Part shown: in pieces, positions 16,628-34,090 of the stretch
Layout of the letters: each line of letters starts with the position of its first letter
How positions within the stretch are numbered: position 1 is the stretch's first letter
Origin: Actinomycetota bacterium
Lineage (GTDB): Bacteria; Actinomycetota; Actinomycetes; Propionibacteriales; Propionibacteriaceae
DNA length: 64,000 nt
Direction of reading: 5' to 3'
NCBI GenBank assembly: GCA_020161795.1
Contig: JAIUOR010000062.1
Location: 1-64,000 of the forward strand
The notes under the pieces: model-generated
Told to the model about the DNA's origin: nothing
Database searches by the model: none
What the model saw: only the letters and a program-made list of their open reading frames with translations
Position numbers and translations under genes: made by a program

Positions 16628-16696
16628 CACAAACCGGGCGATTCGGGCCGGGCGCGTGGATAATCCACGCGGAAGGGCTGGATTGCCCGGATTGTG
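16628..16696. repeat. Dispersed 69-bp palindromic element, copy A
   Basis: This copy begins CACAAACCGGGC and ends GCCCGGATTGTG, arms that pair with one mismatch, and contains an inner perfect hairpin GCGTGGAT-A-ATCCACGC at 16654-16670. It lies between the RND exporter and the serine hydrolase. Copies of nearly equal length occur at 38813-38880 and 60291-60359. The 16560-16627 stretch beside it shares pieces such as GCCGGGGGCTGCG with copy B and may be a decayed second unit. No open frame is present, so it would be a non-autonomous REP- or MITE-like element. Confidence 0.75.
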
Positions 16697-16726
16697 CGGG
16701 GCAGCCGACGACTTGACGGAGGTTTC

Positions 16727-17731: not shown

Positions 17732-17811
17732 GGCGACGGCGATCGAGGCACCGCGACGGTCGCGCCGTACTCGGCGAGGGCGATCCAGGTCGGGTTTGTA
17801 GGGTGGAAGGC

Positions 17812-18555
17812 GTGAGCGCACGAAGCGGACGGGGCGGCCGCTCAGCACAGCTGCCTGGCTGGGCCCTGCTGCTTGCCGTGGCTGTGCTCGTGGTGGGATG
17901 CTCGGCGCCGAGCGACGGGCGCTCGACGGTCCCGTCCAGTTCCCAGGAGGCTGCCGTGCCCGACCCCACCACGCAACGGCTCTGGGACGCGATCGCGGCC
18001 GGCGATCGTGCCGCCGGTCTGGCAGCCATCGCCGATGGCGCCGCGTTGGAGGCCCGCGACGACACCGGCGCGACACCGCTGATCGCCGCCACGAAAGCCG
18101 AACAGACCGACCTGGCGCTCGCCCTGCTGGAAGCCGGTGCCGACCCGAACGCGAAGGACGACATCCAGGATTCGGCCTATCTGTACGCCGGTGCCCGGGG
18201 ACTGGACGAGATCCTGCTCGCCACCCTGGAACACGGCGCCGACGTCACCAGCACGAACCGCTACGGCGGCACCGCACTGATTCCCGCCAGCGAGCGCGGC
18301 CATGTGGAGACCGTGCGGATCCTGCTCGGCGCCGGCGTCGACGTGAACCACATCAACCGCCTCAACTGGACGGCCCTGCACGAGGCGATCGTGCTCGGCG
18401 ACGGCTCCGCCGAGCACATCGAGGTGGTCCGGCTGCTGCTCGACGGCGGAGCCGACCCCACCATCCCGGACGGGGACGGCGTGCTCCCCCGCGAACTGGC
18501 CGCGGACCGCGGCTACCACGCCATGGTCGCCCTGATCGACGAAGCCCGGGGCTGA
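17812..18555 (+). CDS. Ankyrin-repeat lipoprotein
   Basis: A 247-residue secreted lipoprotein. The N-terminal hydrophobic stretch WALLLAVAVLVVGC ends in a lipobox with Cys30 as the lipidated residue, followed by a Ser/Thr/Pro-rich linker. From about residue 55 there are five ankyrin repeats, visible as 'TGATPLIAATKAEQTDLALALLEAGADPNAK', 'GGTALIPASERGHVETVRILLGAGVDVNH' and 'NWTALHEAIVLG...VRLLLDGGADPT' (quoted in parts). It would be a protein-protein interaction module on the outer face of the membrane; partner unknown. GTG 17812 is chosen because a TAGGGT box lies 7 nt before it, the leaderless pattern; GTG 17803 would fall inside that box. Confidence 0.85.
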   Translation: MSARSGRGGRSAQLPGWALLLAVAVLVVGCSAPSDGRSTVPSSSQEAAVPDPTTQRLWDAIAAGDRAAGLAAIADGAALEARDDTGATPLIAATKAEQTDLALALLEAGADPNAKDDIQDSAYLYAGARGLDEILLATLEHGADVTSTNRYGGTALIPASERGHVETVRILLGAGVDVNHINRLNWTALHEAIVLGDGSAEHIEVVRLLLDGGADPTIPDGDGVLPRELAADRGYHAMVALIDEARG

Positions 18556-18672: not shown

Positions 18673-19839
18673 TCACGAGTCGAAGCGATGGACGAGGTCA
18701 GCCGAGCGCTGCGCTTCCCTCAGCCGACCGCTCGCGACATCCTCGACGTCAACCCAGCACCCGGCGAGCGCGGATTCCAGGATGGCCAGGCTCACGCAGA
18801 TGTCCGCGAGTCCCTCGCGAGCGGAGACGGCGGGCTCCCCGTCGCCCGTCACGGCGCGGACGAAGTGCAGCAATTGCCGCGCGTAGGGCCCCAGCTCGCC
18901 CGCCTCGCCGGGCCAGGTGAGGGCGCCAGGGGGAAGGCGATCGCCCAGATCGTCCGACCCGTCCAGTGAGGCCCGAGAACCCACGTAGCGCGGCAGTACG
19001 CGCTCGCCGTCGTCGAGCCAGGACAACGACAGGTGGCCCAGGGCTCCGTTGCGGAAGCGCAGGTGCGCGCTCACGTAGTCCTCGACGTCGGCACTCACCC
19101 GCATCGACCCGTCGTCCGAGCCTCGCTCGGCGCAGAACGTGTGGGCCACGGCCTGGACGCTGTCGATGTCGCCGACGGTGAACCGCAGCCAGTCGATCGA
19201 GTGGACGCCGTTGTCGAAGCCCGTTCCGCCGCCGGCCTGAGCCCGCTGGTGTCGCCACGGGGTGCCCGCGACCACACGGGAACGCGCCCACGGGCTGCCC
19301 AGCGACGGCCACTCGACCAGCCTGAGTTCTCCGATCCCACCGCTGGCCAGGATGTGTCGCTCCGCGCGCGGGCGATCCATGCAGCGGACCTGCTCGGCGA
19401 CCGCCAGGACCACGCCGGCTCGCTCCGCGGCCTCGACCATGGCCCGGCCGAGCGCGACCGAGACCGCCAGCGGCTTCTCGGTGAGCACGTGCAGCCCGGC
19501 CGCGATCGCATCCCGGGCGACCTCGTGGTGCCGGAACGGCGGGGTCAGATCCAGCAGGGCATCCACCTCGCCGGCCGCGACGAGCTCACGATGATCGGCA
19601 TGGACGGACGGGATCACCCCCGGCTGCACGTCGCTCAACCGCGGAATCGGCGGAGCCGCCGGCCGGTCCACGGCGTCGACGCCCTCGTCGTTCCCGAACA
19701 GGAGCCCCCGCAGGCGAGCGGGATCCCTGGTCGCGATGGCCGTGATCACCACGTCGTCACGGATCGTCCGCAGCTGCTGCAGGGCGGTCAGGTGCGCGCC
19801 GAGGATCCACCCGGTACCGACGACGCCGAGCCTGATCAT
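18673..19839 (-). CDS. Gfo/Idh/MocA-family NAD(P)-dependent oxidoreductase
   Basis: A 388-residue dehydrogenase. The N-terminal Rossmann motif is RLGVVGTGWILGAHL, and the conserved lysine appears in 'LHVLTEKPLAVS' (EKP motif). The C-terminal alpha/beta domain contains 'GGTGFDNGVHSIDWLRFTVGDI'. Members oxidise hydroxyls of sugars, inositols or sugar acids. Here it is the last gene of the minus-strand cluster, with its ATGA start overlapping the lactonase gene and GGAGGGGGG just upstream. An enzyme oxidising a sugar to a lactone directly coupled to a lactonase makes biochemical sense (inference). A dimeric or tetrameric cytosolic enzyme is expected. Confidence 0.9.
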   Translation of the reverse strand: MIRLGVVGTGWILGAHLTALQQLRTIRDDVVITAIATRDPARLRGLLFGNDEGVDAVDRPAAPPIPRLSDVQPGVIPSVHADHRELVAAGEVDALLDLTPPFRHHEVARDAIAAGLHVLTEKPLAVSVALGRAMVEAAERAGVVLAVAEQVRCMDRPRAERHILASGGIGELRLVEWPSLGSPWARSRVVAGTPWRHQRAQAGGGTGFDNGVHSIDWLRFTVGDIDSVQAVAHTFCAERGSDDGSMRVSADVEDYVSAHLRFRNGALGHLSLSWLDDGERVLPRYVGSRASLDGSDDLGDRLPPGALTWPGEAGELGPYARQLLHFVRAVTGDGEPAVSAREGLADICVSLAILESALAGCWVDVEDVASGRLREAQRSADLVHRFDS

Positions 19840-20828
19840 CGTCCCCCCTCCATCCTCCACGCCGGCCCTGGGGCCCAGCCGTCCGGCCAGGCGATCACGG
19901 AGGCCGGCGCCGTCACAGCCCAGGACGCCATGGGCTCGAGACCGGCTGCGGAGACCAGGTACTCCGTCACCAGGTCGTCCTTCTCGGCAGCGGCGAGGAT
20001 CCGGCCAGCGTCCGGCGCCAGGCCCCGCACCCCGCGCGGGGATGCCACCAGCCCGACGACCCCGTCCCGCCTGTCCACCACTCCCAGGACCTCCGTGCCA
20101 CGGACCGCGATCACGGCACGGTCGCCGGCCAGGACGGTCTCCGAAGGCTGGGCAGGTGGCGGCAGTTCCAGCGAGCTGACGGCGAGCCGCCAGCGGCCGT
20201 CCGCCCGTTCCAGCCACGCCACGCCCGGTTCGAGTTCCAAGGAGCAGGCCACCAGCGCGCCCGCCGCGGTCAGCGAACGCGGGCCGCTGCCCGGCGGCAG
20301 CCTCACGACCTCGGGTTCGTCCCCGAGTTCGCCGCCGGCGAGCGGATAGAACCGGATCTCGTCGGTGCCGAGATCGGCCACCGCCAGCTGGTCGCCGACG
20401 GCCAGGCTCGAATGAGGGTGGCTGCTCTCCTGACGCGGATGCGGTCCCGACCCGGTGGTGAAGTACACGCCCGGCTCACGCCGGCGGTCGAACGTACCCT
20501 CCGGGGTGAGCGCGAGACCGGTGACGGCACCTCCCATGTAGGAACACACGTAGAGCCAGCACCCGCCGGGGGCGACGGTGACATGGCAGGGGTTCGCCGG
20601 GAGACCCTGCCAGAGGTCGAGCACCCGTGGCTGCGCCGTGAAGTCGACCGCCGCCACCGCACCCGGGTCGGTCTCCAGCGTCACGTACCCGACCGGCCGG
20701 GACGGATGCGCCGCCAGGTGCGCGGGCGACTCCAGCCCCAGTTCGACGCCGACGACGGCGCCGTGGGCTCCGAGCAACGAGAGGGTCGGGCCCCGGCTGC
20801 TCGCCACGAGCGCCCGCGGCCTGCTCAT
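19836..20828 (-). CDS. Lactonase-like seven-bladed beta-propeller protein
   Basis: A 330-residue protein of the 6-phosphogluconolactonase / carboxymuconate cyclase (PF10282-like) type. The pattern of blades is visible as 'HLAAHPSRPVGYVTLE', 'NPCHVTVAPGGCWLYVCSYMGGAVTGLAL', 'GSGPHPRQESSHPHSSLAVGDQLAVADLGTDEIRFY' and 'PPGSGPRSLTAAGALVACSLE' (pieces). The His-rich 'RQESSHPHS' segment corresponds to the family's active-site loop. It would open a sugar-acid lactone. The ATGA overlaps with both neighbours show it is translated with RraA and the Gfo/Idh enzyme. ATG 20828 is used; the frame is open a little further upstream but inside the preceding gene. Confidence 0.8.
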   Translation of the reverse strand: MSRPRALVASSRGPTLSLLGAHGAVVGVELGLESPAHLAAHPSRPVGYVTLETDPGAVAAVDFTAQPRVLDLWQGLPANPCHVTVAPGGCWLYVCSYMGGAVTGLALTPEGTFDRRREPGVYFTTGSGPHPRQESSHPHSSLAVGDQLAVADLGTDEIRFYPLAGGELGDEPEVVRLPPGSGPRSLTAAGALVACSLELEPGVAWLERADGRWRLAVSSLELPPPAQPSETVLAGDRAVIAVRGTEVLGVVDRRDGVVGLVASPRGVRGLAPDAGRILAAAEKDDLVTEYLVSAAGLEPMASWAVTAPASVIAWPDGWAPGPAWRMEGGR

Positions 20829-21682
20829 GCCAACGAGTGCTGGTCGCCGACGAGCCCTTCCGCCGTGGTGCGCCACTGCTGGTAGTCGGTCTCGATCTCC
20901 TCCGGCCAGATCTCGAGATCCAGCTGGGCCGCCGCGTACCGGGCCTGCGAGAGCCGGACCTTGGTGAACACGTCCCGATCCGAGATCCGCCGCGCCATCG
21001 GCACGACCTCGGCCGCCAGGTGGGCGGGGATGAAGGTGGCGCCGCTCGGCGTGACGTGCGCGATGTCGCCGGGAAGCACCGTCACCTCGCCGATCATGAT
21101 CGGCCGGTTGATGGCGACCAGGCAGACCTCCTCGATCGGCGTCGGGTCGACCCCGCGGAAGTAGTAGTTCACCGGCTCCGGCGCGCGGCGCAGCCCGTCG
21201 AGATCCCGTACGCCGCCGTCGATGATCGCGCCCACCCCGGTCCGCGCTGCGATCGCGGTGCCGAGGTTGTCCCCGATCACGGTGCCTTCGCAGACCTTGC
21301 CGAAGATGTCGGCGACCATGATGTCTCCCGGCTGCAGCATGTCGACGACCCAGGCGTTCTCCTGGTCGCCGTAGAAGCCCTCCCGCGACTCACCGAACCG
21401 GAGGACGGCGGCGTCCAGATCGGCTCGCTTGGGGACGAACTGGGCCGTCACCACCCGGCCGACCGTCACCCGGTCGGGGAACGCGCTCTGCCATCCGCCG
21501 CAGAAGTGGTACTTGTATCCGGCGTGCGAAAGCACGTGCCACACCTGTTCGGAGGTGGACGCGCGCAACTCCGCCAGCACGTGATCCGGGACGTGCGGCC
21601 GGCCGTCGAGCAGGCGCTCTCCCTGCCACCCGCTGCTGAGCGCGCTGACTTCCGCCTTCGTCGCCTCTACCTGATACATCAC
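20825..21682 (-). CDS. RraA-family aldolase / decarboxylase
   Basis: A 285-residue RraA-like protein. The signature GDNLGTAIAARTGVGAIIDG continues to R159-D160 at residues 137-160, containing the Arg/Asp pair that binds substrate and metal in HMG/CHA aldolases and oxaloacetate decarboxylases. 'LQPGDIMVADIFGKVCEGT' precedes it. Compared with about 160-220 residues for bare RraA enzymes it has N- and C-terminal additions, like plant- and soil-type 4-hydroxy-2-oxoacid aldolases. It could cleave a 2-keto-3-deoxy sugar acid made by the cluster. It starts 29 bp after the IclR stop with a CAGGAG site. It is the first gene of the three-gene tail, and a TTGCGT half-site at 21702-21707 may mark separate control. 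Confidence 0.85.
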   Translation of the reverse strand: MMYQVEATKAEVSALSSGWQGERLLDGRPHVPDHVLAELRASTSEQVWHVLSHAGYKYHFCGGWQSAFPDRVTVGRVVTAQFVPKRADLDAAVLRFGESREGFYGDQENAWVVDMLQPGDIMVADIFGKVCEGTVIGDNLGTAIAARTGVGAIIDGGVRDLDGLRRAPEPVNYYFRGVDPTPIEEVCLVAINRPIMIGEVTVLPGDIAHVTPSGATFIPAHLAAEVVPMARRISDRDVFTKVRLSQARYAAAQLDLEIWPEEIETDYQQWRTTAEGLVGDQHSLA

Positions 21683-21710
21683 TCGACTCCTGTTCCTGCT
21701 CTTGCGTCCG

Positions 21711-22391
21711 CTAAATCCGGCTGACCCGATCCCGCGCCTCGAGAAGGTAGGTCCACGCCTTCTCGGCCTCCACCGGCTCCAGTTCCAATCCGATCGCCGC
21801 GACCGTACGACCGATCAGGTCGCGCACCGCGATGGCGATCGTGAGGGACGATCGGGTCGGCAGCGTGGCCAGACCGGTCCGCCTGATCTCCTCCAGAGCC
21901 TGGAGGGTGGCGGCGGCCTCGGCATTGGGCGATTCCGACCGGACGATGCTCGGCCAGGTCACGGGGTGCAGCGCGGCCAGGTGGACCCGGCCGGCGGCAG
22001 AACGGGAGAGCGGCAGCGTCGCGCCGAGCTCAACCCGGCTGGCCGCCCGGCGGCCGCTCCGCACCGACACCACGATCACTCCCGCATCGGTCAGCTTCGT
22101 CACATGGCCCGGGAAGCCCAGGTCCGCCACGAGCGCCTTCAGCGCCCTGTCCGCCGCCGCGATGTGGTCCTTCGACTGGATCGAGTACACCGCCAGGTCG
22201 GCTATGCGGCGGCCCAGCACATAGGTGTGCTCGCCGCGTCGCGCCACGAAATGGTGTTGTTCGAGGGTGGCCAGCATCCGCAGCACGGTGCTCTTGTGCA
22301 CCCCCAAGGACGCCGCCATCTCCGTCAGGGTCCGCCGGCCCGCGACGATCTCGTCCAGGATGCGCAGGCCGCGATCGAGGCTCTGGATCAC
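21711..22391 (-). CDS. IclR-family transcriptional regulator
   Basis: A 226-residue regulator. The N-terminal winged helix ('LRILDEIVAGRRTLTEMAASLGVHKSTVLRMLATLEQHHFV', in parts) covers residues about 7-60. The C-terminal effector domain carries 'GHVTKLTDAGVIVVSVRSG', 'LPLSRSAAGRVHLAAL' and a final 'TIAIAVRDLIGRTVAAIGLELEP'. The start is GTG in a GTGA overlap with the kinase gene, so the regulator is made as part of the operon it probably controls. Two TTGCGTAnnnCGCAA-type palindromes upstream of the first gene of the cluster (31177 and 31296) are the likely targets. The inducer would be the imported sugar acid or an intermediate. Confidence 0.9.
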   Translation of the reverse strand: MIQSLDRGLRILDEIVAGRRTLTEMAASLGVHKSTVLRMLATLEQHHFVARRGEHTYVLGRRIADLAVYSIQSKDHIAAADRALKALVADLGFPGHVTKLTDAGVIVVSVRSGRRAASRVELGATLPLSRSAAGRVHLAALHPVTWPSIVRSESPNAEAAATLQALEEIRRTGLATLPTRSSLTIAIAVRDLIGRTVAAIGLELEPVEAEKAWTYLLEARDRVSRI

Positions 22392-23470
22392 GATCCACCC
22401 CCGGCGAGCACGCGGTCGCCGAAATCGGCGACGTCGAGCAGTTCGGCATCCTCGATGCGCTTCGCGATCGTGTTCCCCTCGCGCGCCAGCGGCCCGCCCC
22501 GCTCGGCTCCGAAGCACGCCAGGGCGGCGCCGATCACCAGCGGTTTGTCGAACCTCAGGATGGTCGCGCCGGGCATTCGCGCGGCGATGCCCGCATCGAC
22601 CATCTCGTCCAGCCGAGTGAACCCGCTGGTCAGCACCCAGCCGCTCAGCACGATGTCGGCGCCGGTGGCCGGCAGCCGCACCCGGTGCGCGGCCGCCGTG
22701 ACCATGCCGACCACCTCGTCGGCGAGCCGATCGACCAGTCCACGGGCGAGGCCGTCGCCGGCCTCGTCGGCCACGAAGAGCCGTCGCGCCAGGGCCTCCA
22801 GCTGGGCATCCCGGGTGGAGCTGTGCCAGTACGCGACGACCGCGTCCCAGGTGGTGACCGTCTGGAAGTGGGCGGGCACGTCGTACTGCAGCCGGGTGTG
22901 GGGGCCGCGTCCGTCGGAGGAGCGCTGAGCCGCATAGAGTACCTCGCGGCCGAGTTCGAGCGCGCCGCCCCAGTCGCCCGAGACCCTGCCCAGCGCGAGG
23001 TACTCGGCCCTGGATCCCGTCGACGCCCGCGCGATCGCGTTGATGCCGGCACCACAGATCAGCGCCACGCCGGCGGGCCGCCGCATGCCGGCCCACAACA
23101 GCCCGTGGACGTCGTTCTCGACGATCAGGTCCGGCGTACGGAGCCGCTGCCCCAGGCCGCGCCGAACCTCGTCGCGTTCGTCCTGCAGGTCGACGTCGGC
23201 GACGATCGCCGCCACCCGATCGGGTGCGGAATCCGGCGCCACCCCGGCATGCTGCAGCGCCAGTTCGTACAGCGAGGCGATGGCCTCGATCGTGTTGCCG
23301 ACGCCGATTCTGCGCGGCGAGGCGCCCGGGCCGATCACCCGGGCGAGGACCTCCCCGGCAGCCGTGATGAGCACCGCCTCCGAGCGGAGGATCCCGACAT
23401 GGACGCCGAAGTAGCGCCGCGAGTCCGGCTGGATCGCGGCCCGCGGCACGGCTGTCTTCTCAGCGGTCAC
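22388..23470 (-). CDS. BadF/BadG/BcrA-type ATPase, N-acetylglucosamine-kinase-like
   Basis: A 360-residue protein of the ASKHA superfamily. It shows the phosphate-2-like 'VALICGAGINAIARAS' segment, 'GRVSGDWGGALELGREVLYAAQRSSDGRG' (the GGxxLG signature of GlcNAc kinases) and a C-terminal 'ADIVLSGWVLTSG...VIGAALACFGA'. The first phosphate loop (usually DGGGTKT near residue 15) is replaced by 'FGVHVGILRSEAVLITAAGEVLARV', lacking the usual DGG, which makes catalytic activity uncertain. It may phosphorylate an amino-sugar acid, or act as a sensor. It overlaps ridA by 11 bp and the IclR gene by 4 bp. Confidence 0.8.
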   Translation of the reverse strand: MTAEKTAVPRAAIQPDSRRYFGVHVGILRSEAVLITAAGEVLARVIGPGASPRRIGVGNTIEAIASLYELALQHAGVAPDSAPDRVAAIVADVDLQDERDEVRRGLGQRLRTPDLIVENDVHGLLWAGMRRPAGVALICGAGINAIARASTGSRAEYLALGRVSGDWGGALELGREVLYAAQRSSDGRGPHTRLQYDVPAHFQTVTTWDAVVAYWHSSTRDAQLEALARRLFVADEAGDGLARGLVDRLADEVVGMVTAAAHRVRLPATGADIVLSGWVLTSGFTRLDEMVDAGIAARMPGATILRFDKPLVIGAALACFGAERGGPLAREGNTIAKRIEDAELLDVADFGDRVLAGGGS

Positions 23471-23927
23471 GGACCTTCACGATCATCTCGATCTCGACCG
23501 GCTGGTTCAGCGGGAGAACGGAGGTTCCCATGGCCGAGCGGGCATGCTTGCCACGTTCGCCGAAGACCTCGATCAGCAGATCCGAGCAGCCATGGATGAC
23601 CGCCGGCTGATCGTAGAAGTCGAGCGCCGAGTTGACCAGCCCGAAGACCTTGATGACCCGCTCCACCCGTTCCAGGCTCCCCAGGTGATCGTGGACGGAC
23701 CGCAGCAGTTGGACGCCGGTCGCCCGCGCCGCCGCATAGCCGTCCTCGACGCTCAGGTCGCTGCCGACGCGACCCTTGAACAGCAGGTTCCCCTCGTTGT
23801 CCTCCGGGCCGTGGCCCGACACGTACAGGGTCGTCCCGTCCAGGACGCACGGCACCACACCCCCGCGCTTGTTGACCTTGGTGGGCAGGTCGTAGCCCAA
23901 CTCGCGCATGCGGTCGTCTGCATTCAT
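23460..23927 (-). CDS. RidA/YjgF-family enamine/imine deaminase-like protein
   Basis: A 155-residue RidA-superfamily protein. Family features are 'LYVSGHGPEDNEGNLLFKGRVGSDLSVEDGYAAARATGVQLLRSVHDHLGSLERVERVIKV' (parts) and a C-terminal strand 'VEIEMIVKVRD' preceded by 'SAMGTSVLPLNQPV'. The catalytic arginine that RidA proper has near position 105 is not obvious, so it belongs to a broader RidA subgroup. RidA proteins hydrolyse reactive enamines and imines released by PLP-dependent lyases. It is encoded beside a PLP enzyme, with an ATGA overlap with the amidohydrolase and GGAGG 7-11 nt upstream of its start, which fits such a clean-up role. Confidence 0.85.
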   Translation of the reverse strand: MNADDRMRELGYDLPTKVNKRGGVVPCVLDGTTLYVSGHGPEDNEGNLLFKGRVGSDLSVEDGYAAARATGVQLLRSVHDHLGSLERVERVIKVFGLVNSALDFYDQPAVIHGCSDLLIEVFGERGKHARSAMGTSVLPLNQPVEIEMIVKVRDR

Positions 23928-25135
23928 TTCTTTTCCTCCTCCTGTGGCGGCATTGCACCGAACCGGGTGAGCCAGGGGGACGGCCGGAACTCGTCCGGTC
24001 CGTCGGCCGGCGGAATCAACACGCCGTCGCGGTAGGCGCCGAGGCACTCCAGCCGCTGCGTGAAGGCGAGCGTATGGCCCGTCGAATCCTGCTTCTCGTA
24101 CTCGCCCTCCACCAGGCGCAGCACGGCGAGGTCGGCCGGGGAGCCCACCTCCAGCACGCCGAGATCGGGGCGGCCGATCATGCCCGCCGGCTTGGCGGTG
24201 GCCCGCTCCAGCACGTCGGTCAGGCTCAGCCCGAGCGCGAGGAACATCTCGACCACGGTCAGCTGGCTCCGGATCGGCCAGCCCACGTTCTCCGCGTGGA
24301 TGTCGGAGGAGAGCGAATCCGGCAGCACCCCCTGTTCCAGGCACTGCATCACGACCCGGTGCGAGATCGAGGCCACCCCGTGCCCGACATCGAGGCGGAC
24401 GCCGCGCTCGATCGCGTCCCGGACGCACGGCCGCACCCGGCCGTCGCGGTCGGTGATGCGCCCACCGGCGTGCGGATGGAAGCAGTGGGTCAGGATGTCG
24501 CCTTCGACCAGATGGCTGGTGACCTCTTCGATGGTCGGCGGGGACATCCCGATGTGCACCATCAGCGGGACGTCGAGTTCGTCGGCGATGAACCGTGCCT
24601 GCGGCAGCACCGAACTCGCATTGTCGGCGAGGGCGTTCGAACTCGCCCTGAGCTTGATCCCCTTGATCTCACCGGGGTTCTCCTCGTTCGCGCGCAGGAT
24701 CGCGCGGACATCGGCGTACGAGGCGTCCCAGAGCTCGCCCACCTCCCGGGTCATCAGCCCGGCATTGGCCAGGCCCATGAACGACAGGTTGATGAACGGA
24801 ACCACCCGCACCCGCGAGGTTTCCTTCACCTGCTGGATGAGGCCCTGGAACGCTCCCGCTCCGGCCGTGCCGGCATCGACCCAGGTGGTCGTGCCGCCGC
24901 GCGCCGCGATGCGATCGGCGCGGATCCCGAGCCGGAACGCGCCGTGGTAGACGTGGGTATGGGTGTCGATCAGGCCCGGCGACACGATGCAGTCGGTCGC
25001 GTCGACGACCTCGTCCGCCGGCTCACCGATCGATGGCCCGAGGCCGGCCACCACTCCGTCCCGGACGAGCACGTCGCTGCGGATCAGCTCTCCTTTGGTG
25101 TACGCCGTACCGCCGCGGAACAGCACGGTTGTCAT
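23924..25135 (-). CDS. Amidohydrolase / deacetylase-family metallohydrolase
   Basis: A 403-residue TIM-barrel metal hydrolase of the amidohydrolase superfamily. The strand-1 metal motif is 'SPGLIDTHTHVYHG' (HxH). A lysine in 'GEIKGIKLRAS' is the probable carboxylated ligand, histidines follow in 'PLMVHIGMSPPT' and 'ILTHCFHPHAGG', and 'LSSDIHAENVGW' gives the final Asp. This spacing resembles the EF0837/Atu3266 subgroup, some members of which hydrolyse N-acetyl or lactam bonds. These genes are commonly beside SelA/DgaE-like genes, as here. It overlaps both neighbours by 4 bp. Deacylation of an N-acyl amino-sugar acid is a reasonable guess; substrate not established. Confidence 0.85.
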   Translation of the reverse strand: MTTVLFRGGTAYTKGELIRSDVLVRDGVVAGLGPSIGEPADEVVDATDCIVSPGLIDTHTHVYHGAFRLGIRADRIAARGGTTTWVDAGTAGAGAFQGLIQQVKETSRVRVVPFINLSFMGLANAGLMTREVGELWDASYADVRAILRANEENPGEIKGIKLRASSNALADNASSVLPQARFIADELDVPLMVHIGMSPPTIEEVTSHLVEGDILTHCFHPHAGGRITDRDGRVRPCVRDAIERGVRLDVGHGVASISHRVVMQCLEQGVLPDSLSSDIHAENVGWPIRSQLTVVEMFLALGLSLTDVLERATAKPAGMIGRPDLGVLEVGSPADLAVLRLVEGEYEKQDSTGHTLAFTQRLECLGAYRDGVLIPPADGPDEFRPSPWLTRFGAMPPQEEEKK

Positions 25136-26268
25136 GCGAACCTCCTGCTCAGGACGTCCTCGACGGCCGAGACCAGATAGGCCTGCTCGTCGGCGAGAAC
25201 CGAGAACGGGTTGACGAAAATCTCGGACGCCGACGGACGATCCAGCCCGATCTCGACCGGTACGGCGAGTTGCCGGAAGTCGTCGGCCAGGTCGGCCGCG
25301 CTCAGCCCGGCGTGGTTCCACCTGATGTACAACCGCGGGCAGTCCTGACCCATCCGTCCGCGCCGGACCCGGTAGGTGGTCAGGCCCTCGGGGACGGCCT
25401 GTTCGACCGCGTCGAGGAGCGCCTCCCACCCAGCCCACGACTGCGCCGCGCCGGTAGCCAGGGCCTCGTCGATCGCGGTCACCAGGCCGATGATCATCTC
25501 CTTGCTCACCTTCGCCGCCCGGCCGACGTACTGGTGGGGGAAGGCCACGAGCCGACAGGCGGTGACCAGTTCCGCCTCGCCGACGACCAGTCCGCTGCCC
25601 TGCGGACCGCGCAGACCCTTGCCGCCGCTGAAGACGACCAGGTCGGCACCGCGATCGTGGTAGGCGCGGAGGTTGCCGAAGGGCGGCACCTGCGCCGCGG
25701 CATCCACGATCAGGGGCACGCCGGCCCGCCGGGCCGCGTCGGCCATGTCCTCCAGGCTGGGGGCGTTGCGTTCGAACTCGTCGCCGGCCAGCCAGATGAA
25801 CGCCGCCGTCCTCTCGTCCACCTCACCGGCCAGATCCCACGACGGCGGCGCGTCCGACTTCCCGATGTCGCGAATCCGCCCGCCGGTCAGCTCGATCGCG
25901 GCGTCATAGCCGGTGCGCTGGGACTTCAGCATCAGGAACTCGTGCGCAGCGGGCAGCCGGGTGGGCAGGTTCGCCGCCAGCGCCGCGTCGCCATGGGTCA
26001 TGCAGGCTGCGGCGCAGGCCGTGAGGCCCGCTGCCGCGCCGGCGACCGGGAGCGCCGCCGGAACCCCGATGGCCTCCGCCAGGTACGAACCAGCGGCGCC
26101 GATCAGCTCGGTGAGCGAGACATGGTGGCCGCTCGCCTCGGTGACGGCGGCGGCGACGCCCGGGCTCCAGCGACCTCCGCCGAGCGCGGTGTAGGTATCC
26201 GCGGCGTTGACCACGCGCCGCACGCCGAGCCGGGCATAGCACTCTGCGGTCACAACCGATTCAGACAA
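25132..26268 (-). CDS. SelA/DgaE-like PLP-dependent enzyme (D-glucosaminate ammonia-lyase family)
   Basis: A 378-residue fold-type-I PLP enzyme. The Schiff-base lysine is K217 in 'DLVVFSGGKGLRGPQGSG', the motif shared by selenocysteine synthase-like and D-glucosaminate-6-phosphate ammonia-lyase (DgaE) proteins. An upstream 'PLIVDAAAQVPP' provides the Asp that contacts the PLP nitrogen. The predicted reaction is loss of ammonia from a 2-amino sugar acid to give a 2-keto-3-deoxy acid. The start is probably TTG at 26268, since GGAAAGG lies 8 nt before it and the position overlaps the enolase stop by 8 bp; GTG 26253 is the alternative. Next to amidohydrolase and ridA genes, it fits a deacylation-deamination sequence. 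Confidence 0.82.
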   Translation of the reverse strand: MSESVVTAECYARLGVRRVVNAADTYTALGGGRWSPGVAAAVTEASGHHVSLTELIGAAGSYLAEAIGVPAALPVAGAAAGLTACAAACMTHGDAALAANLPTRLPAAHEFLMLKSQRTGYDAAIELTGGRIRDIGKSDAPPSWDLAGEVDERTAAFIWLAGDEFERNAPSLEDMADAARRAGVPLIVDAAAQVPPFGNLRAYHDRGADLVVFSGGKGLRGPQGSGLVVGEAELVTACRLVAFPHQYVGRAAKVSKEMIIGLVTAIDEALATGAAQSWAGWEALLDAVEQAVPEGLTTYRVRRGRMGQDCPRLYIRWNHAGLSAADLADDFRQLAVPVEIGLDRPSASEIFVNPFSVLADEQAYLVSAVEDVLSRRFA

Positions 26269-27379
26269 CGCGCAGCCTTTCCACCGCATCCAGGTCGACA
26301 TCGACTCCGATGCCGGGGCCGAGCGGAACGGCCATCTCGCCGTTCTCCGTGCTCAATCGTGTCACCAGCACATCGTCGAGATGCATGGCGTAGGTCGAAT
26401 CCGAGGCCAGCGAGAGCCCCGGCGTAGCCGCTGCGACCTGCAGCATCATGGCGGCCTTCACCCCCAGGTCCCACCCGCAGTGGTGCGCCACGGGGATGCC
26501 GAACTGCCTGCCGAGAGCGCCCAGTTCGACCAGGCCGCGCACGCCCATCGCGCCCTCGATGTCCACCACCGCAGCGTCGATGGCGCCGTGTTCGATGGCC
26601 CTGGCCATGCCGCCGGGCATGTAGGCGTCCTCGTTGATGGCGATCGGGACGGTCGTCCGATCCCGGAGGGTGCGACAGCCGACGAAGTCGCCCACCGGCA
26701 GGGGCTGCTCCACGTACTCGATCGGGTAGCCCTCCAGGGCGGGCAGCATTCTGAGCGCCGTCACCCGGTCGAGCGCCTGGTTGGCGTCCAGGCGCAGCTT
26801 CAGCCCGCCGCCGGTGGCCTCGGTGATCGCGCGCACGCGCTCGAGATCGCCGGCCAGGTCGATGCCGATCTTGGTCTTCAGGACGGTCCAGCCGGCGGCG
26901 AACGCGCGGGTGGCGATCGTCACCGCGGTGGGGACGTCGGTGAGGCCCATGCAGAACGCCACCGGTACCCGCTCCCGGATCCGTCCGCCGAGCAGGGTCG
27001 ACACCGGCACCCCGAGCGACCGGCCGAGAATGTCCCACAGCGCCATCTCGACGGCGCAGGCCAGGGCCCGTCTTCCCAGTTGCGGCCAGTAGGGCGCATC
27101 CAGCGCATCGATCACGCGGATGATGTCGCCCGCCTCCAGCCCGACGATGGTGGGCGCGATCCACTCGTCCACCAGTGCGCGATCCACGGCGAGCGGGAAT
27201 CCGGTGTTGATCTCTCCCCAGCCGTCGACGCCGTCGTCGGTGGACACCCGTATCAGCAGGCTCTGGGCGTGGCTGACCCCGGCCTTGTCCTGGCTGCCCG
27301 CGTAGGGAGCGATCCCCCCGTCCTCGATCAGCCGGACGCCGGTTCGGACGTGGTGGCCGGTGACGCTCGTGATTCTCAC
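26261..27379 (-). CDS. Enolase-superfamily enzyme (mandelate racemase / muconate lactonizing type)
   Basis: A 372-residue enzyme with the MR/MLE layout: N-terminal capping domain, then a barrel. The K-x-K acid/base motif is K168-T-K170. Metal ligands are D198 (in LRLDANQ), E224 (in YVEQPL) and E250 (in INEDAY), and a His pair occurs in 'PVAHHCGWDLG'. Members abstract a proton next to a carboxylate and act as sugar-acid dehydratases, racemases/epimerases or cycloisomerases. Here a dehydratase or epimerase on the imported acid is likely. GTG 27379 is used, with GAGGAG just upstream; longer frames lie in the SDR gene. It is separated by 8 bp from the SDR gene. Confidence 0.9.
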   Translation of the reverse strand: MRITSVTGHHVRTGVRLIEDGGIAPYAGSQDKAGVSHAQSLLIRVSTDDGVDGWGEINTGFPLAVDRALVDEWIAPTIVGLEAGDIIRVIDALDAPYWPQLGRRALACAVEMALWDILGRSLGVPVSTLLGGRIRERVPVAFCMGLTDVPTAVTIATRAFAAGWTVLKTKIGIDLAGDLERVRAITEATGGGLKLRLDANQALDRVTALRMLPALEGYPIEYVEQPLPVGDFVGCRTLRDRTTVPIAINEDAYMPGGMARAIEHGAIDAAVVDIEGAMGVRGLVELGALGRQFGIPVAHHCGWDLGVKAAMMLQVAAATPGLSLASDSTYAMHLDDVLVTRLSTENGEMAVPLGPGIGVDVDLDAVERLRVV

Positions 27380-27387
27380 CTTGCTCC

Positions 27388-28149
27388 TCAGTGGTTCGGT
27401 CGGTAGGAGGCTCGGGCGGTCAACCCGCCGTCGGCCTGGATGGTGGCTCCGGTCACGTAGCTGGAGGCCGGGCTGAGCAGCCACCAGACGATCTCGGCGA
27501 TCTCCGCCGGCTCGGCGGGGCGGCCGAGCGGGATCATGGCGCGGATGGAACTCTCCTCACCAGAGCGCGTCTCGTCGTCCAGTGGGTCCAGCCAGTCGCT
27601 CCACAGCCGGGTGCGGACGAATCCCGGGGCGACCGTGTTGGCCCGGACGCCGTACGGGGCCGCGTCGAGGGCCATCGCCCGGGTCATGCCCTCGACTCCG
27701 GACTTCGACGCCGAGTACGCGGCGAGCCCGGCCAGCGCCGCCCGGCCGTGGATCGACGAGACGTTGACGATCGCGCCGCCCGGCTTCCGCAGCCTCGGCC
27801 ACGCCGCCGCGGACACCACGAGCGGGGCGCGCAGGTTGACGCTGTGGAGTCGTTCCCACACCTCGAGCCCGGTCTCGAAGAAGGGCGCGCTCGCGCCGAT
27901 CCCGGCGTTGTTCACGATGCCGGCCAGATCGGCGTCGGCCGTCACCTCCCGCACCGCCGCGGCGGTGGCATCGGGATCGGCCAGATCGACCACCACGGGT
28001 ACGACGCCGTCGGCCCCTTCGTGGCGAGCCGGCAACTGCGGGTCGCTGTCCAGCGCCAGAACGGTGGTCCCGTGCTCCAGCGCGAGGCGGAGCACCGCCT
28101 CCCCGATGCCCGATGCGGCACCGGTGACCAGAATCGATGGTCGAGTCAT
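27388..28149 (-). CDS. Short-chain dehydrogenase/reductase (classical SDR)
   Basis: A 253-residue NAD(P)-dependent oxidoreductase. The cofactor motif TGAASGIG lies at about residues 9-16, NNAG in 'IVNNAGIGA', the catalytic Ser in 'VNVSSIHGRA', and the Y-x3-K pair in 'AAYSASKSGVEGMTRA'. The end 'SSYVTGATIQADGGL' is typical. The acidic residue after strand 2 ('LALDSDPQ') indicates NAD preference. It could oxidise a hydroxyl of the imported sugar or reduce a keto intermediate. The start overlaps the permease stop (ATGA), placing it directly after the transporter genes in the operon. Confidence 0.92.
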   Translation of the reverse strand: MTRPSILVTGAASGIGEAVLRLALEHGTTVLALDSDPQLPARHEGADGVVPVVVDLADPDATAAAVREVTADADLAGIVNNAGIGASAPFFETGLEVWERLHSVNLRAPLVVSAAAWPRLRKPGGAIVNVSSIHGRAALAGLAAYSASKSGVEGMTRAMALDAAPYGVRANTVAPGFVRTRLWSDWLDPLDDETRSGEESSIRAMIPLGRPAEPAEIAEIVWWLLSPASSYVTGATIQADGGLTARASYRPNH

Positions 28150-28994
28150 CCCTTCACCGCTCCTGACGCCAGGCCTTCGACAAAGAACCGCTGCACAATC
28201 ATGAATGCCACAACCATGGGCAGCGAGACAATGGTCGCAGCGGCCATGGTCGCGCCCCAGTCGGTGGAGAACTGGCCGGCGAAGTCGGTGAGCGCCACCG
28301 GCGCCGTCTTCGAGTTCGCCGACCGGCTGATCACCGAGGCGAAGATGAACTCGTTCCACGACTGGAGGAAGGCGAAGATCCCGACCGCCACCAGGCTCGG
28401 CGCCACGACCGGGAGCACGACGTTCCACACCGCGCGAGGCCGTCCACAGCCGTCGACCATCGCCGCTTCCTCCAGCTCGATCGGGGCTCCGGAGAAGGCC
28501 GTCGTGAGCATCCAGGTCACCAACGGCACCACCACGGTGAGGTGGGCCAACGCCACGCCGGGGATGGTGTCGATCAGCCCCAGCCGGGCGACCACCTGGA
28601 ACACCGGCAGCATCAGGACGGTGATGGGCAGCAATTGGCCCAGCAGCAGCGCTACCGAGAGCCCGGACGCACCCCGGAAGCGCAGCCGCGCGATCGCGTA
28701 CCCGGTGCCGCTGCCGATCAGGAGCGTCACGACGGCGACCAGCGCGGCGACAGCGGCCGACGTCGCGATCGCCCGCGGCATCGCGGAGTCGGTCAGCACG
28801 CCGATGTAGTGATCCAGCGTCGGACTGGACGGCAGGAACTCCGGCGGGATCCGGAAGATCTGGTCGGCTGGCTTGAACGAGGTGGTCACCATGACCACCA
28901 GCGGGAGGAAGCCGAACGCTCCCAGGAGCAGCAGGACCACCCACGCGATGACGACCGGCAGGGCCCGGCGGGCCTTCCCCTGTACACGCGTCAT
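28146..28994 (-). CDS. Carbohydrate ABC transporter permease (MalG type)
   Basis: A 282-residue CUT1 permease with six predicted membrane helices, the first being VVIAWVVLLLLGAFGFLPLVV. The cytoplasmic EAA loop reads 'IELEEAAMVDGCGRPRAVWNVVLPVVAPS', which docks to the shared ATPase, and the protein ends 'GLASGAVKG'. It overlaps by 4 bp with both the MalF-type permease and the SDR gene. No nucleotide-binding subunit is encoded anywhere in this cluster, so it must use an MsiK-like general ATPase. Confidence 0.92.
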   Translation of the reverse strand: MTRVQGKARRALPVVIAWVVLLLLGAFGFLPLVVMVTTSFKPADQIFRIPPEFLPSSPTLDHYIGVLTDSAMPRAIATSAAVAALVAVVTLLIGSGTGYAIARLRFRGASGLSVALLLGQLLPITVLMLPVFQVVARLGLIDTIPGVALAHLTVVVPLVTWMLTTAFSGAPIELEEAAMVDGCGRPRAVWNVVLPVVAPSLVAVGIFAFLQSWNEFIFASVISRSANSKTAPVALTDFAGQFSTDWGATMAAATIVSLPMVVAFMIVQRFFVEGLASGAVKG

Positions 28995-29905
28995 GCGTCG
29001 GCCCGCCTGGCTCGGCTGACGTAGAGGGCCGCCACTGCCATCGACAGCACGAGCTGGACGCCGGCGAGCGCCTCGAGGGCGGCTCGTTCGCCGGTCTGGA
29101 AGTACTGGTACAGCTGCACGGGAAGGATGTTGGTGGCGCCGGCCGGGCCGCCCTTGGTCATGATCCAGACCGGGAGGAACGAGTTGAGCGTCCACACCGT
29201 GACGATCAGCACCACGATGAAGACCACGTCGCGAATCCCCGGCAGGGTGATGTTCAGCATCGTCCGGATCGCGCCGGCGCCGTCCACCCGGGCGGCCTCG
29301 TAGCGCTCGGAGGGAATCGCCTGGAGGCCGGACGAGATCATCAGCATGACGAACGAGAACCGCCCCCAGACGTCGACCATGGCCACCGCGAAGAGCGCGA
29401 TGTCGGTATTCGTCAGCCACGAGACCGGCTCGTCGATGATGCCGAGGTTCTGCAGCAGCAGGTTGAGGATTCCGTAGTCACGGCTGTAGAACCACTTCCA
29501 GGCCGTGGCCGCGGCGACGGTCGGCGTGACCCAGGGGATGAGCAGCAGCGCGCGCCACATTCCCGAGAATCGCCGGCCGACCCGTTGCAGCGCGAGCGCG
29601 CCGGCGAACCCGAGGATCATCGACCCGAAGACGCCCACCAGCACCCACACCGTGGTGTTCCACAGGGTCTGCCGGAACAGCGGGGCCTGGCTGAGTTCGG
29701 CGAGCTTGGACAGGCCGGTCGGCGACACCGCTCCGACCAGGACGATGATCGTCGGCACGGCTGCCAGGCCGATCATCGTGAGCACGGCGGGGAAGGAGAG
29801 CAGCCAGCCCTGCAGATCACGCTTGGACAGCAGTGCCGGCCGCTTCTGCCGCGCCTGTGGCGGGGCGGCTGAGCCACCCCGCCACTGTGATTGCACGGCG
29901 CTCAA
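28991..29905 (-). CDS. Carbohydrate ABC transporter permease (MalF type)
   Basis: A 304-residue CUT1 permease with about six membrane helices after a charged 30-residue N-terminus. The EAA loop is 'IPSERYEAARVDGAGAIRTMLNITLPG', and 'PWVTPTVAAATAWKWFYSRDYGILN' is typical of the MalF class. The start is uncertain: TTG 29905 comes 1 nt after the binding-protein stop, while GTG 29896 is also in frame; neither has a strong ribosome-binding site, which suggests coupling to the upstream gene. Confidence 0.9.
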   Translation of the reverse strand: MSAVQSQWRGGSAAPPQARQKRPALLSKRDLQGWLLSFPAVLTMIGLAAVPTIIVLVGAVSPTGLSKLAELSQAPLFRQTLWNTTVWVLVGVFGSMILGFAGALALQRVGRRFSGMWRALLLIPWVTPTVAAATAWKWFYSRDYGILNLLLQNLGIIDEPVSWLTNTDIALFAVAMVDVWGRFSFVMLMISSGLQAIPSERYEAARVDGAGAIRTMLNITLPGIRDVVFIVVLIVTVWTLNSFLPVWIMTKGGPAGATNILPVQLYQYFQTGERAALEALAGVQLVLSMAVAALYVSRARRADA

Positions 29906-29906
29906 A

Positions 29907-31145
29907 CTACTTGCCGAGAGCCGTCTCGGCGTGGCTGACGATCGTCGCGTTGGCGTCAGCCGGCGTCGAGTCTCCGAGCGCCACGGACTGCGCGGCGGCG
30001 AAGATGGTCGGAATCATCTCCTCGTATCCGGCGAAGGACGGCACCGGGAAGGCGTAGTCGGTCTGCTGCTCGAGGAACGGCTGGAGCAGCGGATCGCTGA
30101 ACTTCTCGTTGCTGGCCGCCGAGATGCGCGCCGGGAAGGTGTCGGTCATCCGCGACTGGTTGTCCGGCGTGGAGAGGTACGACACGAACTGCTGGAGTTC
30201 GGGCGCCTCGGTCGCGCCGGCGGGCACCATCAGAGCGAAGCCGTCCGCCGACACCATCGCAGGGCCATCAGGCCCCGGCCACATGGCGGTTCCGACGTTG
30301 ATGCCGCCCTCCTTGATCGGCGCGATGGCGTAGGCGCCCTCGAAGTAGAACGCGATCTGCCCGTTGATCAGCAGGTTCTGGAGCTGGGTGTTGTCCGCCT
30401 CCAGCGAGGACGGCGTCACATAGCCCTCCTTGAACCCCTGCTCGATCAGTTCCAGCGAGGCCTGCGAGGCTTCCGCATTGAGGGTTCCGCCGCGCTCCAG
30501 CGTGCCGCCCATGGTGTAGTAGCCGTTCAGCCACCGGACCTGGGTGTTGCGGTCGTTGCCCAGCGGCCAGCCGTAGGCGTAGACGCCGGTCTTGTCGTGG
30601 ATCGTCTTGGACACGGCCTGGAGTTCGCTCCAGGTCTTCGGAACCTCGACGCCGGCCTTCTCGAAGAGATCCTTGTTGTAGACCATCGACCCGGCATCCC
30701 AGCGGAAGGGGACGCCGTACACGGTGCCGTCGACCGACACCGCGTCGACCGCGGACTTGGTGAAGTCGTCCATGGCCATGTCGCCGGTGTACCAGCTCGA
30801 CACATCCCGGAGCTGATCCTGCTCGGCGTAGAGCGGAACCCGCGAGATCAGTTCGGTGATGACGTCCGGGGTATCACCGGAATCCAACGCGACCTTGATC
30901 TGGTTCGCCATCGAATCCCAGGTCGTGATGACCAGCTTGACGGTGACGTTCGGATGGTCGTCGGTGAACTCCTTGACCATCTCGTTCGCTTCGGCCTCAT
31001 CCCAGTTGGGCGCCCACCATTCGATCTCGACCTGACCACCTGCCGAGGGGCTACCTGTCGTCTGAGGGTTCTCCCCTGCAGCGCAGGCCGTCAGGCCCAG
31101 TGCCGCGACCAGCGAGAACGCCACAAGTGCACGTTGTCTGTTCAT
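29907..31145 (-). CDS. Extracellular sugar-binding lipoprotein (family 1 solute-binding protein)
   Basis: A 412-residue lipoprotein. The signal peptide ends in a lipobox LTAC with Cys21, followed by a short Gly/Ser/Pro linker. The mature domain starts 'VEIEWWAPNWDEAEANEMVKEF' and contains 'DVITELISRVPLYAEQDQLRDVSSW', 'VDGTVYGVPFRWDAGSMVYNKDLFEKAGVE' and 'PFLEQQTDYAFPVPSF' (pieces), typical of CUT1 receptors. It is the first gene of the minus-strand catabolic operon, and its upstream region holds two palindromes that are probable IclR sites. It defines the substrate of the cluster, but specificity cannot be read from sequence. Confidence 0.9.
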   Translation of the reverse strand: MNRQRALVAFSLVAALGLTACAAGENPQTTGSPSAGGQVEIEWWAPNWDEAEANEMVKEFTDDHPNVTVKLVITTWDSMANQIKVALDSGDTPDVITELISRVPLYAEQDQLRDVSSWYTGDMAMDDFTKSAVDAVSVDGTVYGVPFRWDAGSMVYNKDLFEKAGVEVPKTWSELQAVSKTIHDKTGVYAYGWPLGNDRNTQVRWLNGYYTMGGTLERGGTLNAEASQASLELIEQGFKEGYVTPSSLEADNTQLQNLLINGQIAFYFEGAYAIAPIKEGGINVGTAMWPGPDGPAMVSADGFALMVPAGATEAPELQQFVSYLSTPDNQSRMTDTFPARISAASNEKFSDPLLQPFLEQQTDYAFPVPSFAGYEEMIPTIFAAAQSVALGDSTPADANATIVSHAETALGK

Positions 31146-33962: not shown

Positions 33963-34090
33963 CACCAAGCCATCGCAGAGAGGAGTCGCACACCGCGACA
34001 CAGCACGTCCGGCAGGGCGTGCGCACCACTCCAGGGAAGCGGTCCGAACCGCACCCTGTCGTACAGAAAACTCGATGAGGAGAAACTCTC

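Follow-up and report, generated by a model that had tools for sequence, protein, structure and literature searches.

The first 64,000 nucleotides of contig JAIUOR010000062.1 from a bacterium of the Propionibacteriaceae (assembly GCA_020161795.1), in the following called the window, carry at 18673..31145 thirteen minus-strand genes, among them those of a DgaE-like lyase dependent on pyridoxal 5′-phosphate (PLP), an amidohydrolase, a RidA-type protein and an RraA-like enzyme. The window represents 64 kb of a 108.8-kb contig in a 3.47-Mb genome of 67 contigs, with a G+C content of about 69%. Comparison with other genomes confirms a conserved gene set that recurs in distant bacteria. With a probability somewhat better than even, the cluster is an operon for the catabolism of an N-acylated amino-sugar acid (a 2-acetamido-2-deoxy-aldonate of the N-acetyl-glucosaminate type) or of the parent amino sugar or disaccharide. 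This assignment is suggested by the conserved clusters, the family of the lyase and its retained lysine, an association of Rid and amidohydrolase genes, the amino-sugar context and the analogy to the marine ong pathway, which the proposed pathway would parallel with a lyase of another fold.

A gene set recurring in distant bacteria

Each of the thirteen genes has an open frame and matches a named family above its Pfam cut-off, the lyase barely so (aminotransferase class V, 22.0 bits versus 21.5). In the order of transcription they encode an extracellular solute-binding protein (SBP), two permeases of an ATP-binding cassette (ABC) importer, a short-chain dehydrogenase (SDR), an MR/MLE enzyme of the enolase superfamily, the lyase, the amidohydrolase, RidA, a BadF-type ATPase, an IclR regulator, RraA, a lactonase and a Gfo/Idh dehydrogenase. 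The junctions measure +1, -4, -4, +8, -8, -4, -4, -11, -4, +31, -4 and -4 bp in this order, i.e. three gaps (1, 8 and 31 bp) and nine overlaps of 4-11 bp. Start codons are predictions chosen by spacing and homology; the least sure is that of the lyase, a TTG at 26268. A preceding interpretation of the same DNA, here termed the sequence-only reading, had named these families and their tight junctions correctly. It set RraA, lactonase and Gfo/Idh apart as a second block, but this block lies just 31 bp from the first, so that the whole set may be one transcript, and RraA and lactonase genes occur in the same set in relatives.

Six clusters were compared, namely those of the window, of G1048 (loci L180/L183) and G1026 (L179, L190), which share one family in another order of the window's class, of Phytohabitans maris (L065) and of two Lachnospiraceae, L087 and G854 (L167). 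The co-conservation on which the sequence-only reading had staked itself is thus found in five further clusters. Common to all six, the window counted, are lyase, amidohydrolase, RidA and an RraA-family gene, the latter being of another, shorter kind in P. maris. The G1048 genes follow each other on one strand as RraA, SBP, permease, permease, SDR, MR/MLE, lyase, amidohydrolase, RidA, GH4, BadF, BadF and IclR; ten stand in the window order, while GH4 and one BadF are inserted and RraA has moved to the front. Identities between G1048 and the window extend from 77% for RidA to 44% for IclR (Table 1, under L183), with 56% for the SBP and 47% for the lyase. G1026 is split: one contig end carries RraA through the first half of MR/MLE, another contig the last part of MR/MLE through GH4 and the start of a BadF gene, and we infer that the two pieces join into one cluster. 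In P. maris nine gene types adjoin a LacI regulator (SBP, two permeases, SDR, MR/MLE, the shorter RraA-family gene, lyase, amidohydrolase and RidA). In L087 and L167 the set is rearranged to LacI, SDR, lyase, an N-acylglucosamine-2-epimerase-like gene, SBP, two permeases, two RidA, lactonase, amidohydrolase and RraA. A Trueperaceae contig (L141) carries IclR, SBP, two permeases, MR/MLE and lyase; its opposite strand encodes an amidohydrolase of 43% identity.

Eight genes (SBP, two permeases, SDR, MR/MLE, lyase, deacylase and RidA) keep the same order and strand in P. maris and G1048, the P. maris run carrying an inserted RraA-family gene. The chance of one given order of eight genes is 1/8! 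(2.5e-5), and the recurrence of this order in both genomes shows the arrangement to be more than chance. Among the related clusters a lactonase is found in the Lachnospiraceae ones only; that of L087 belongs to the same Pfam family as the window lactonase, and a protein 36% identical to it is encoded at the corresponding position of L167. The window protein itself gave no tblastn match there. RraA and a lactonase are concluded to belong to the same functional set as the first block.

The distribution is patchy. In all genome searches only some candidates per genome were scored, which makes absences soft. Searches of 29 other genomes in the window's own genus did not reveal the lyase; the query gave four matches of about 100 residues only (E 1.2e-4 to 4.4e-4). 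In its order, 2 of 245 genomes matched at E <= 1e-60, one being the window's own and the other G1462; near the G1462 lyase none of the remaining query genes turned up at E <= 1e-4. A search of the class with RraA hit 5 of 394 genomes at E <= 1e-25, the own included; of the other four, G1048 and G1026 hold the cluster, G315 and G1003 do not. In the Phytohabitans family 5 of 250 genomes matched the lyase (E <= 1e-30). One of them holds the cluster and another an eroded remnant; the remaining three genomes have lyase loci of other kinds, some of which include amidohydrolase, SDR or Gfo-like genes nearby. The remnant, in G513 (L163:10351-11300), consists of lyase, amidohydrolase and RidA fragments in cluster order and is apparently an eroded copy. 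Both lyase-positive Lachnospiraceae (2 of 250, E <= 1e-60) have the full cluster type, and G854 has a second, different lyase locus (L168) with a partial MR/MLE match. On plasmids only relatives below 60% identity were found (238/238 records), and the neighbourhoods of four were taken, one of these records being unannotated in that region.

That the thirteen genes are chance neighbours without a common pathway has a virtually nil probability. The failure to find the lyase in the 29 other genomes of the genus would agree with it, but the same genes and order in other orders, their rearranged recurrence in another phylum and the single lyase clade described below do not, and the conserved clusters refute it.

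Active site and partners of the lyase

The relation of the lyase to DgaE rests on NCBIfam (NF047797, 157.8 bits versus a cut-off of 600; TIGR01437, 180.1 versus 385.3) and PDB matches. It was compared within 107 lyase loci, which include loci taken because they carry the cluster and many cut by contig ends; the contig scan that contributed to them (the best 80 of 552 confirmed, 592 stretches) is not an unbiased sample. The Schiff-base lysine is kept in 107/107 aligned lyases (K217 in the window).

According to the study on DGL (PMC9529869), His162 and His163 of this enzyme are strictly conserved and His163 gives the C3 proton. The H163A variant retains full steady-state activity, but a 293-nm species accumulates transiently and stereospecific protonation is lost, which the authors read as enamine release; Arg301, Arg332 and Arg346 placed the phosphate in manual docking (PMC9529869). 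At the two histidine positions the window lyase has Asp163-Glu164, and both histidines are present in 3/107 lyases only (L052, L061, L062). Of the three proposed phosphate-site arginines one is kept, the residues being Arg, Gly and Phe at positions 301, 332 and 346. The lyases of G1048, G1026, P. maris, L087 and L167 likewise have neither histidine, keep R301 and carry Gly at R332, with Tyr, Tyr, Phe, Leu and Leu, respectively, at R346. Cluster-type lyases can thus probably do without a 6-phosphate and have no equivalent of the DGL proton donor. A phosphate-independent lyase fits the ABC importer, since the latter brings in unphosphorylated sugar, and the lost proton donor fits the co-encoded RidA. 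The DgaE-like chemistry of the sequence-only reading is not fully supported, since the substrate of DGL is a 6-phosphate and two of the three proposed phosphate-site arginines as well as both histidines are missing from the window enzyme.

A tree of 108 sequences, built by a quick method without bootstrap and rooted at the midpoint, unites the four lyases of the actinobacterial clusters in a single clade (SH-aLRT 99), and the Lachnospiraceae enzymes fall inside the same group of 11 (support 90). DGL (7lc0) groups separately, with L052 and L062.

Amidohydrolases of this superfamily bind their metals by an H-x-H, K, H, H, D motif, and all these ligands are present in the window sequence. The protein scores just under the cut-off for PRK09237 (NF006689; 364.8 versus 371 bits) and lower for TIGR03583 (248.4 versus 432). 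RidA matches PF14588 with 75.6 bits (cut-off 35). Throughout the 107 loci, a cog3964-like amidohydrolase accompanies the lyase in 15/21 loci with a Rid gene within 10 kb and in 14/86 without (p 2e-6); these counts at E <= 1e-5 take in weak matches (L054, L091, L092 and L109 at 1e-10 to 1e-12), and the statistics ignore kinship between loci that are related and partly chosen. Under a strict amidohydrolase cut-off the proportions are 11/21 and 7/86. With the six clusters left out they are 9/15 and 14/86 (p 8e-4), or 5/15 and 7/86 under the strict cut-off (p 0.016), and in the 80 scan loci alone 9/12 and 9/68 (p 3e-5; strict 6/12 and 5/68, p 1e-3).

The lyase-Rid pair also occurs alone, as seen in G059 (L053:8802-10442), where a 36% lyase with His at the H163 position is directly followed by a 62% RidA, and no cog3964 match was found in the 20-kb locus.

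Substrate and proposed pathway

The context of the genes favours an N-acyl amino sugar or its acid as substrate, without proving it. Inside the G1048 operon lie a GH4 gene and a NagK-like kinase gene. The GH4 protein has one homolog (56%) in the window's genome, on contig C50, where it adjoins ROK and BadF genes and is preceded by a GH20 hexosaminidase and a peptide-type ABC importer; the stretch at about 48 to 59 kb (L195:10191-19698, L196:82-747) holds GH20 hexosaminidase, family-5 SBP, permease, ROK, GH4 and BadF. This amino-sugar-like locus may feed the window operon. Both Lachnospiraceae clusters include the 2-epimerase-like gene (221 bits to N-acyl-D-glucosamine 2-epimerase, cut-off 600), and the haloarchaeal plasmid locus L049, with a GH18 chitinase, combines a 34% lyase with Rid, glucose dehydrogenase, lactonase, a 40% MR/MLE enzyme, IclR and a PIG-L deacetylase.

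The same chemistry could act on a 2-acetamido-uronic acid such as the N-acetyl-mannosaminuronate or N-acetyl-galactosaminuronate of cell-wall and capsule polymers, which would be oxidised to an aminoglycarate, deacetylated and subjected to elimination before RraA cleaves the keto-diacid, a kind of substrate known for RraA-type aldolases. We regard this as unlikely. Dicarboxylic keto-acid aldolases are indeed the NCBIfam relatives of RraA (TIGR02798, below cut-off), MR/MLE enzymes count diacid (glucarate and galactarate) dehydratases among them (matches below cut-off as well), and the 2-epimerase-like gene of L087 and L167 would also suit a uronate. However, the genes identified in the six clusters include no uronate isomerase, uronate reductase or known uronidase, no dedicated search having been run, and the G1048 GH4 best fits a MelA-like alpha-galactosidase (below cut-off).

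Quite unlikely is a catabolism of N-acyl-D-amino acids or beta-hydroxy-alpha-amino acids instead of sugars, in which the amidohydrolase would deacylate, lyase and RidA would deaminate to a 2-keto acid, and RraA would decarboxylate or cleave the product. It finds a precedent in OngC, which catalyses the matching step in the ong pathway and also deaminates D-serine and D-threonine (PMC9537276). Lyase, Rid and amidohydrolase moreover occur together in loci such as L125 and L116 with few or none of the other window genes found. The CUT1 importer, lactonase, MR/MLE, Gfo/Idh, NagK-like kinase, GH4 and 2-epimerase-like genes nevertheless point to sugars.

About as unlikely, finally, is a non-amino sugar-acid pathway built around an MR/MLE dehydratase and RraA, where lyase, amidohydrolase and RidA would be confined to a side reaction, e.g. 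removal of O-acetyl groups or clean-up of reactive enamines. Cog3964 enzymes hydrolyse acetylated 2-hydroxy acids, and MR/MLE is second only to RidA in identity between window and G1048 (65% vs 77%). On the other hand, L087 and L167 keep lyase, amidohydrolase and two RidA genes although no MR/MLE homolog was found there by tblastn, and the lyase retains its Schiff-base lysine.

In the preferred pathway for an N-acylated amino-sugar acid, receptor and permeases would import an unphosphorylated sugar; as no ABC ATPase gene is present among the thirteen, a shared ATPase would have to serve the importer. If an aldose is imported, Gfo/Idh or SDR would oxidise C1 and the lactonase would open the lactone. 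Judged from its pairing with the lyase, the cog3964 amidohydrolase would remove the acetyl group from the C2 nitrogen. The lyase would then eliminate water from the free 2-amino acid and, having lost the histidine that delivers the C3 proton in DGL, should release an enamine, as the published H163A mutant is taken to do. The dedicated RidA would speed ammonia release to a 2-keto-3-deoxy-aldonate, and RraA would cleave the latter to pyruvate and an aldehyde. Alternatively, BadF would phosphorylate it for the aldolase of 2-keto-3-deoxy-6-phosphogluconate (KDPG). The MR/MLE enzyme may either epimerise C2 of the sugar acid or arrive at the same intermediate by dehydrating another sugar acid that has no amino group.

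The degradation of an N-acyl amino sugar or its acid had already been put forward in the sequence-only reading; the triad of deacylase, DgaE-like lyase and RidA fits an N-acyl amino-sugar acid. Two of its steps turned out not to be general. Phosphorylation before cleavage is not supported in the P. maris, L087 and L167 loci, where tblastn with the window BadF found no homolog (an unrelated kinase could escape) while RraA-family genes are present, which favours the RraA ending there. In the window, RraA matches PF03737 with 59.3 bits (cut-off 24.5) and contains G-G-V-R-D, of which the R-D pair, part of the RraA catalytic motif, is conserved in 4/4 aligned sequences; relatives of its long subfamily have 272-302 residues. 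BadF itself finds in the PDB only N-acetylglucosamine and N-acetylmuramic acid kinases, and these weakly (three sequences, best E 1e-8). KDPG aldolase is present in 6/6 genomes tested, the window's own included, so that both the phosphorylative and the RraA ending are possible. Likewise the opening of an aldose-derived lactone is optional, as no Gfo/Idh gene was found in the five related clusters (the G1026 pieces being cut by contig ends) and a lactonase occurs in the Lachnospiraceae only; Gfo-like genes do lie within 10 kb of 9/106 other lyases, very near in L092, L168, L169 and L170.

Besides this lack of Gfo/Idh, several points weigh against the amino-sugar-acid pathway. Characterised cog3964 amidohydrolases favour acetyl esters of 2-hydroxy acids over N-deacetylation. 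The MR/MLE enzyme fits no clear pathway step, and RraA is dispensable for KDPG, all six genomes tested having a KDPG aldolase. At the site of Arg226, the proposed holder of the substrate carboxylate, Arg or Lys is found in 93/107 lyases and Glu in the window enzyme alone (1/107), the end branch of which is 1.23 long versus 0.11-0.45 in its clade (about 3 to 11 times longer). The substrate of the window lyase may hence differ, relaxed selection or a changed substrate being suggested alternatives. The Rid-amidohydrolase association fades at 5 kb under the strict cut-off with the six clusters left out (3/14 versus 7/87, p 0.14). A preference of Rid genes for lyases without His163 found no support, a Rid gene lying within 5 kb of 5/15 lyases with and 15/92 without this residue (p 0.15). 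In the known cases RidA is dispensable for turnover: H163A DGL has full steady-state activity and its enamine decays unaided (PMC9529869), and OngC alone gave 2-keto-3-deoxy-gluconate (KDG) and ammonia in vitro (PMC9537276).

A more specific proposal is tentative and rather doubtful. Actinomycetota and Bacillota would share an undescribed, patchily distributed pathway that breaks down unphosphorylated N-acyl amino-sugar acids; its fold-type I lyase, having lost its own proton donor, would hand a sugar-acid enamine to a dedicated Rid protein, and the last step would fall to an RraA-family aldolase, not KDPG aldolase. Its probability is lowered by the in vitro results, which speak against a need for RidA.

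Gene coordinates, neighbours and relation to described systems

Table 1. Genes of the cluster in transcription order, with window coordinates, strand, and family matches or identities to counterparts in other loci
Gene product	Coordinates	Strand	Matches
CUT1-type extracellular solute-binding protein, 412 aa	29907..31145	-	Pfam SBP_bac_1, 146.8 bits; PDB matches are sugar-binding proteins; 46-57% to L065, L183, L179
ABC permease, MalF type, 304 aa	28991..29905	-	Pfam BPD_transp_1; L065 50%, L183 58%, L087 38%
ABC permease, MalG type, 282 aa	28146..28994	-	Pfam BPD_transp_1; L065 61%, L183 64%, L087 47%
SDR dehydrogenase, 253 aa	27388..28149	-	Pfam; L065 46%, L183 46%, L087 30%
MR/MLE enolase-superfamily enzyme, 372 aa	26261..27379	-	Pfam; L183 65%, L065 58%, L049 40%
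DgaE/SelA-like fold-type I PLP lyase, 378 aa (start uncertain)	25132..26268	-	NCBIfam and PDB; Lys217 is the Schiff-base lysine
Cog3964/EF_0837-type amidohydrolase (predicted deacylase), 403 aa	23924..25135	-	Pfam, NCBIfam; L183 60%, L065 55%
RidA-type protein, 155 aa	23460..23927	-	Pfam PF14588; L183 77%, L190 74%, L065 64%, L053 62%
BadF/NagK-like ATPase (predicted sugar or sugar-acid kinase), 360 aa	22388..23470	-	Pfam; 45% to second BadF of L183
IclR-family regulator, 226 aa	21711..22391	-	Pfam; 44% to L183 IclR, which likewise follows BadF
RraA-like enzyme (predicted aldolase), long subfamily	20825..21679	-	Pfam; L183 52%, L179 52%, L087 40%, L167 42%
Seven-bladed lactonase, 330 aa	19836..20828	-	Pfam PF10282
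Gfo/Idh/MocA dehydrogenase, 388 aa	18673..19839	-	Pfam; not found in the five related clusters

Among the curated models nearest to the SDR are those of butanediol dehydrogenase and glucose 1-dehydrogenase; not one of the 25 matches listed exceeds its cut-off. In the MR/MLE enzyme, read by eye, K-x-K, the D/E/E metal ligands and an Asp-His pair, which mark the MR subgroup, are conserved in 4/4 aligned sequences, alongside a conserved D and H-H-C-G; these residues do not tell the reaction. The window IclR is shorter than that of G1048 (226 vs 250 aa) and covers the effector domain PF01614 in part (positions 4-149 of 174). Close to the cluster, the opposite strand holds a further sugar uptake locus (32763-37202), which encodes a ROK protein, an SBP and one permease by Pfam as well as a second permease-like frame, judged by eye. 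The downstream neighbours, also on the other strand, are a PF00144 beta-lactamase-family protein and an ankyrin-repeat protein (16694-17731 and 17803-18555).

The closest functional analog is the ong cluster of the oxidative chitin pathway in Pseudoalteromonas prydzensis, where OngB deacetylates N-acetyl-glucosaminate, OngC (fold-type III) deaminates the product to KDG and KdgK phosphorylates it, OngD of the RidA family being essential in a role unknown to the authors (PMC9537276). The shared logic consists of importer, deacetylase, PLP deaminase, RidA and kinase, all encoded together in the window as judged by family. Action on an unphosphorylated N-acetyl amino-sugar acid has been shown by experiment for ong (PMC9537276) and is predicted for the window system. 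The parts differ: the window lyase is of fold-type I and SelA/DgaE-like, its amidohydrolase is cog3964-like while OngB is D-aminoacylase-like (set apart by family), and an ABC importer takes the place of the sodium symporter OngIT. The eight listed ong genes include no RraA, MR/MLE, lactonase or Gfo/Idh (PMC9537276).

The dga system with DGL (PDB 7lc0/7lce) shares superfamily, Schiff-base lysine and Arg301 with the window lyase, but uses a phosphotransferase system and a 6-phosphate, whereas the window lyase is accompanied by ABC importer, deacylase and RidA, lacks H162, H163, R332 and R346, has Glu for R226 and belongs to another clade. The window amidohydrolase comes close to the EF_0837 family (TIGR03583, NF006689/PRK09237) and adjoins a DgaE-like gene, as is also the case in EF0837-EF0839 of Enterococcus; instead of a DgaF-type aldolase gene the window cluster contains RraA. 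The haloarchaeal chitin locus L049, on a Halosolutus plasmid, shares DgaE-like lyase, Rid, glucose dehydrogenase, lactonase, MR/MLE and IclR; there deacetylation by PIG-L/CE14 would precede oxidation, a chitinase lies alongside, and the lyase falls in another clade. For Natrarchaeobius a route from N-acetylglucosamine via glucosaminate has been predicted, its authors assuming a phosphorylated intermediate and calling the pathway hypothetical (PMC12343721). As the sequence-only reading had supposed, no description of the exact gene set was found in the open-licence full-text literature; subscription papers could hold one. Each part belongs to a known family and the overall logic to a known kind, and the combination is apparently new.

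The degradation of chitin and cell-wall glycans gives rise to oxidised amino sugars, for which few routes have been worked out, ong and dga among these. The D-glucosaminate dehydratase of Pseudomonas represents another. If the proposed pathway is true, the cluster would add an independent route, used by actinobacteria and Lachnospiraceae. Under the more specific proposal a Rid protein would also gain a committed step, the role left open for OngD. With a window lyase naturally devoid of His163 and RidA co-encoded in 6/6 clusters, the question of Rid as a pathway enzyme becomes testable.

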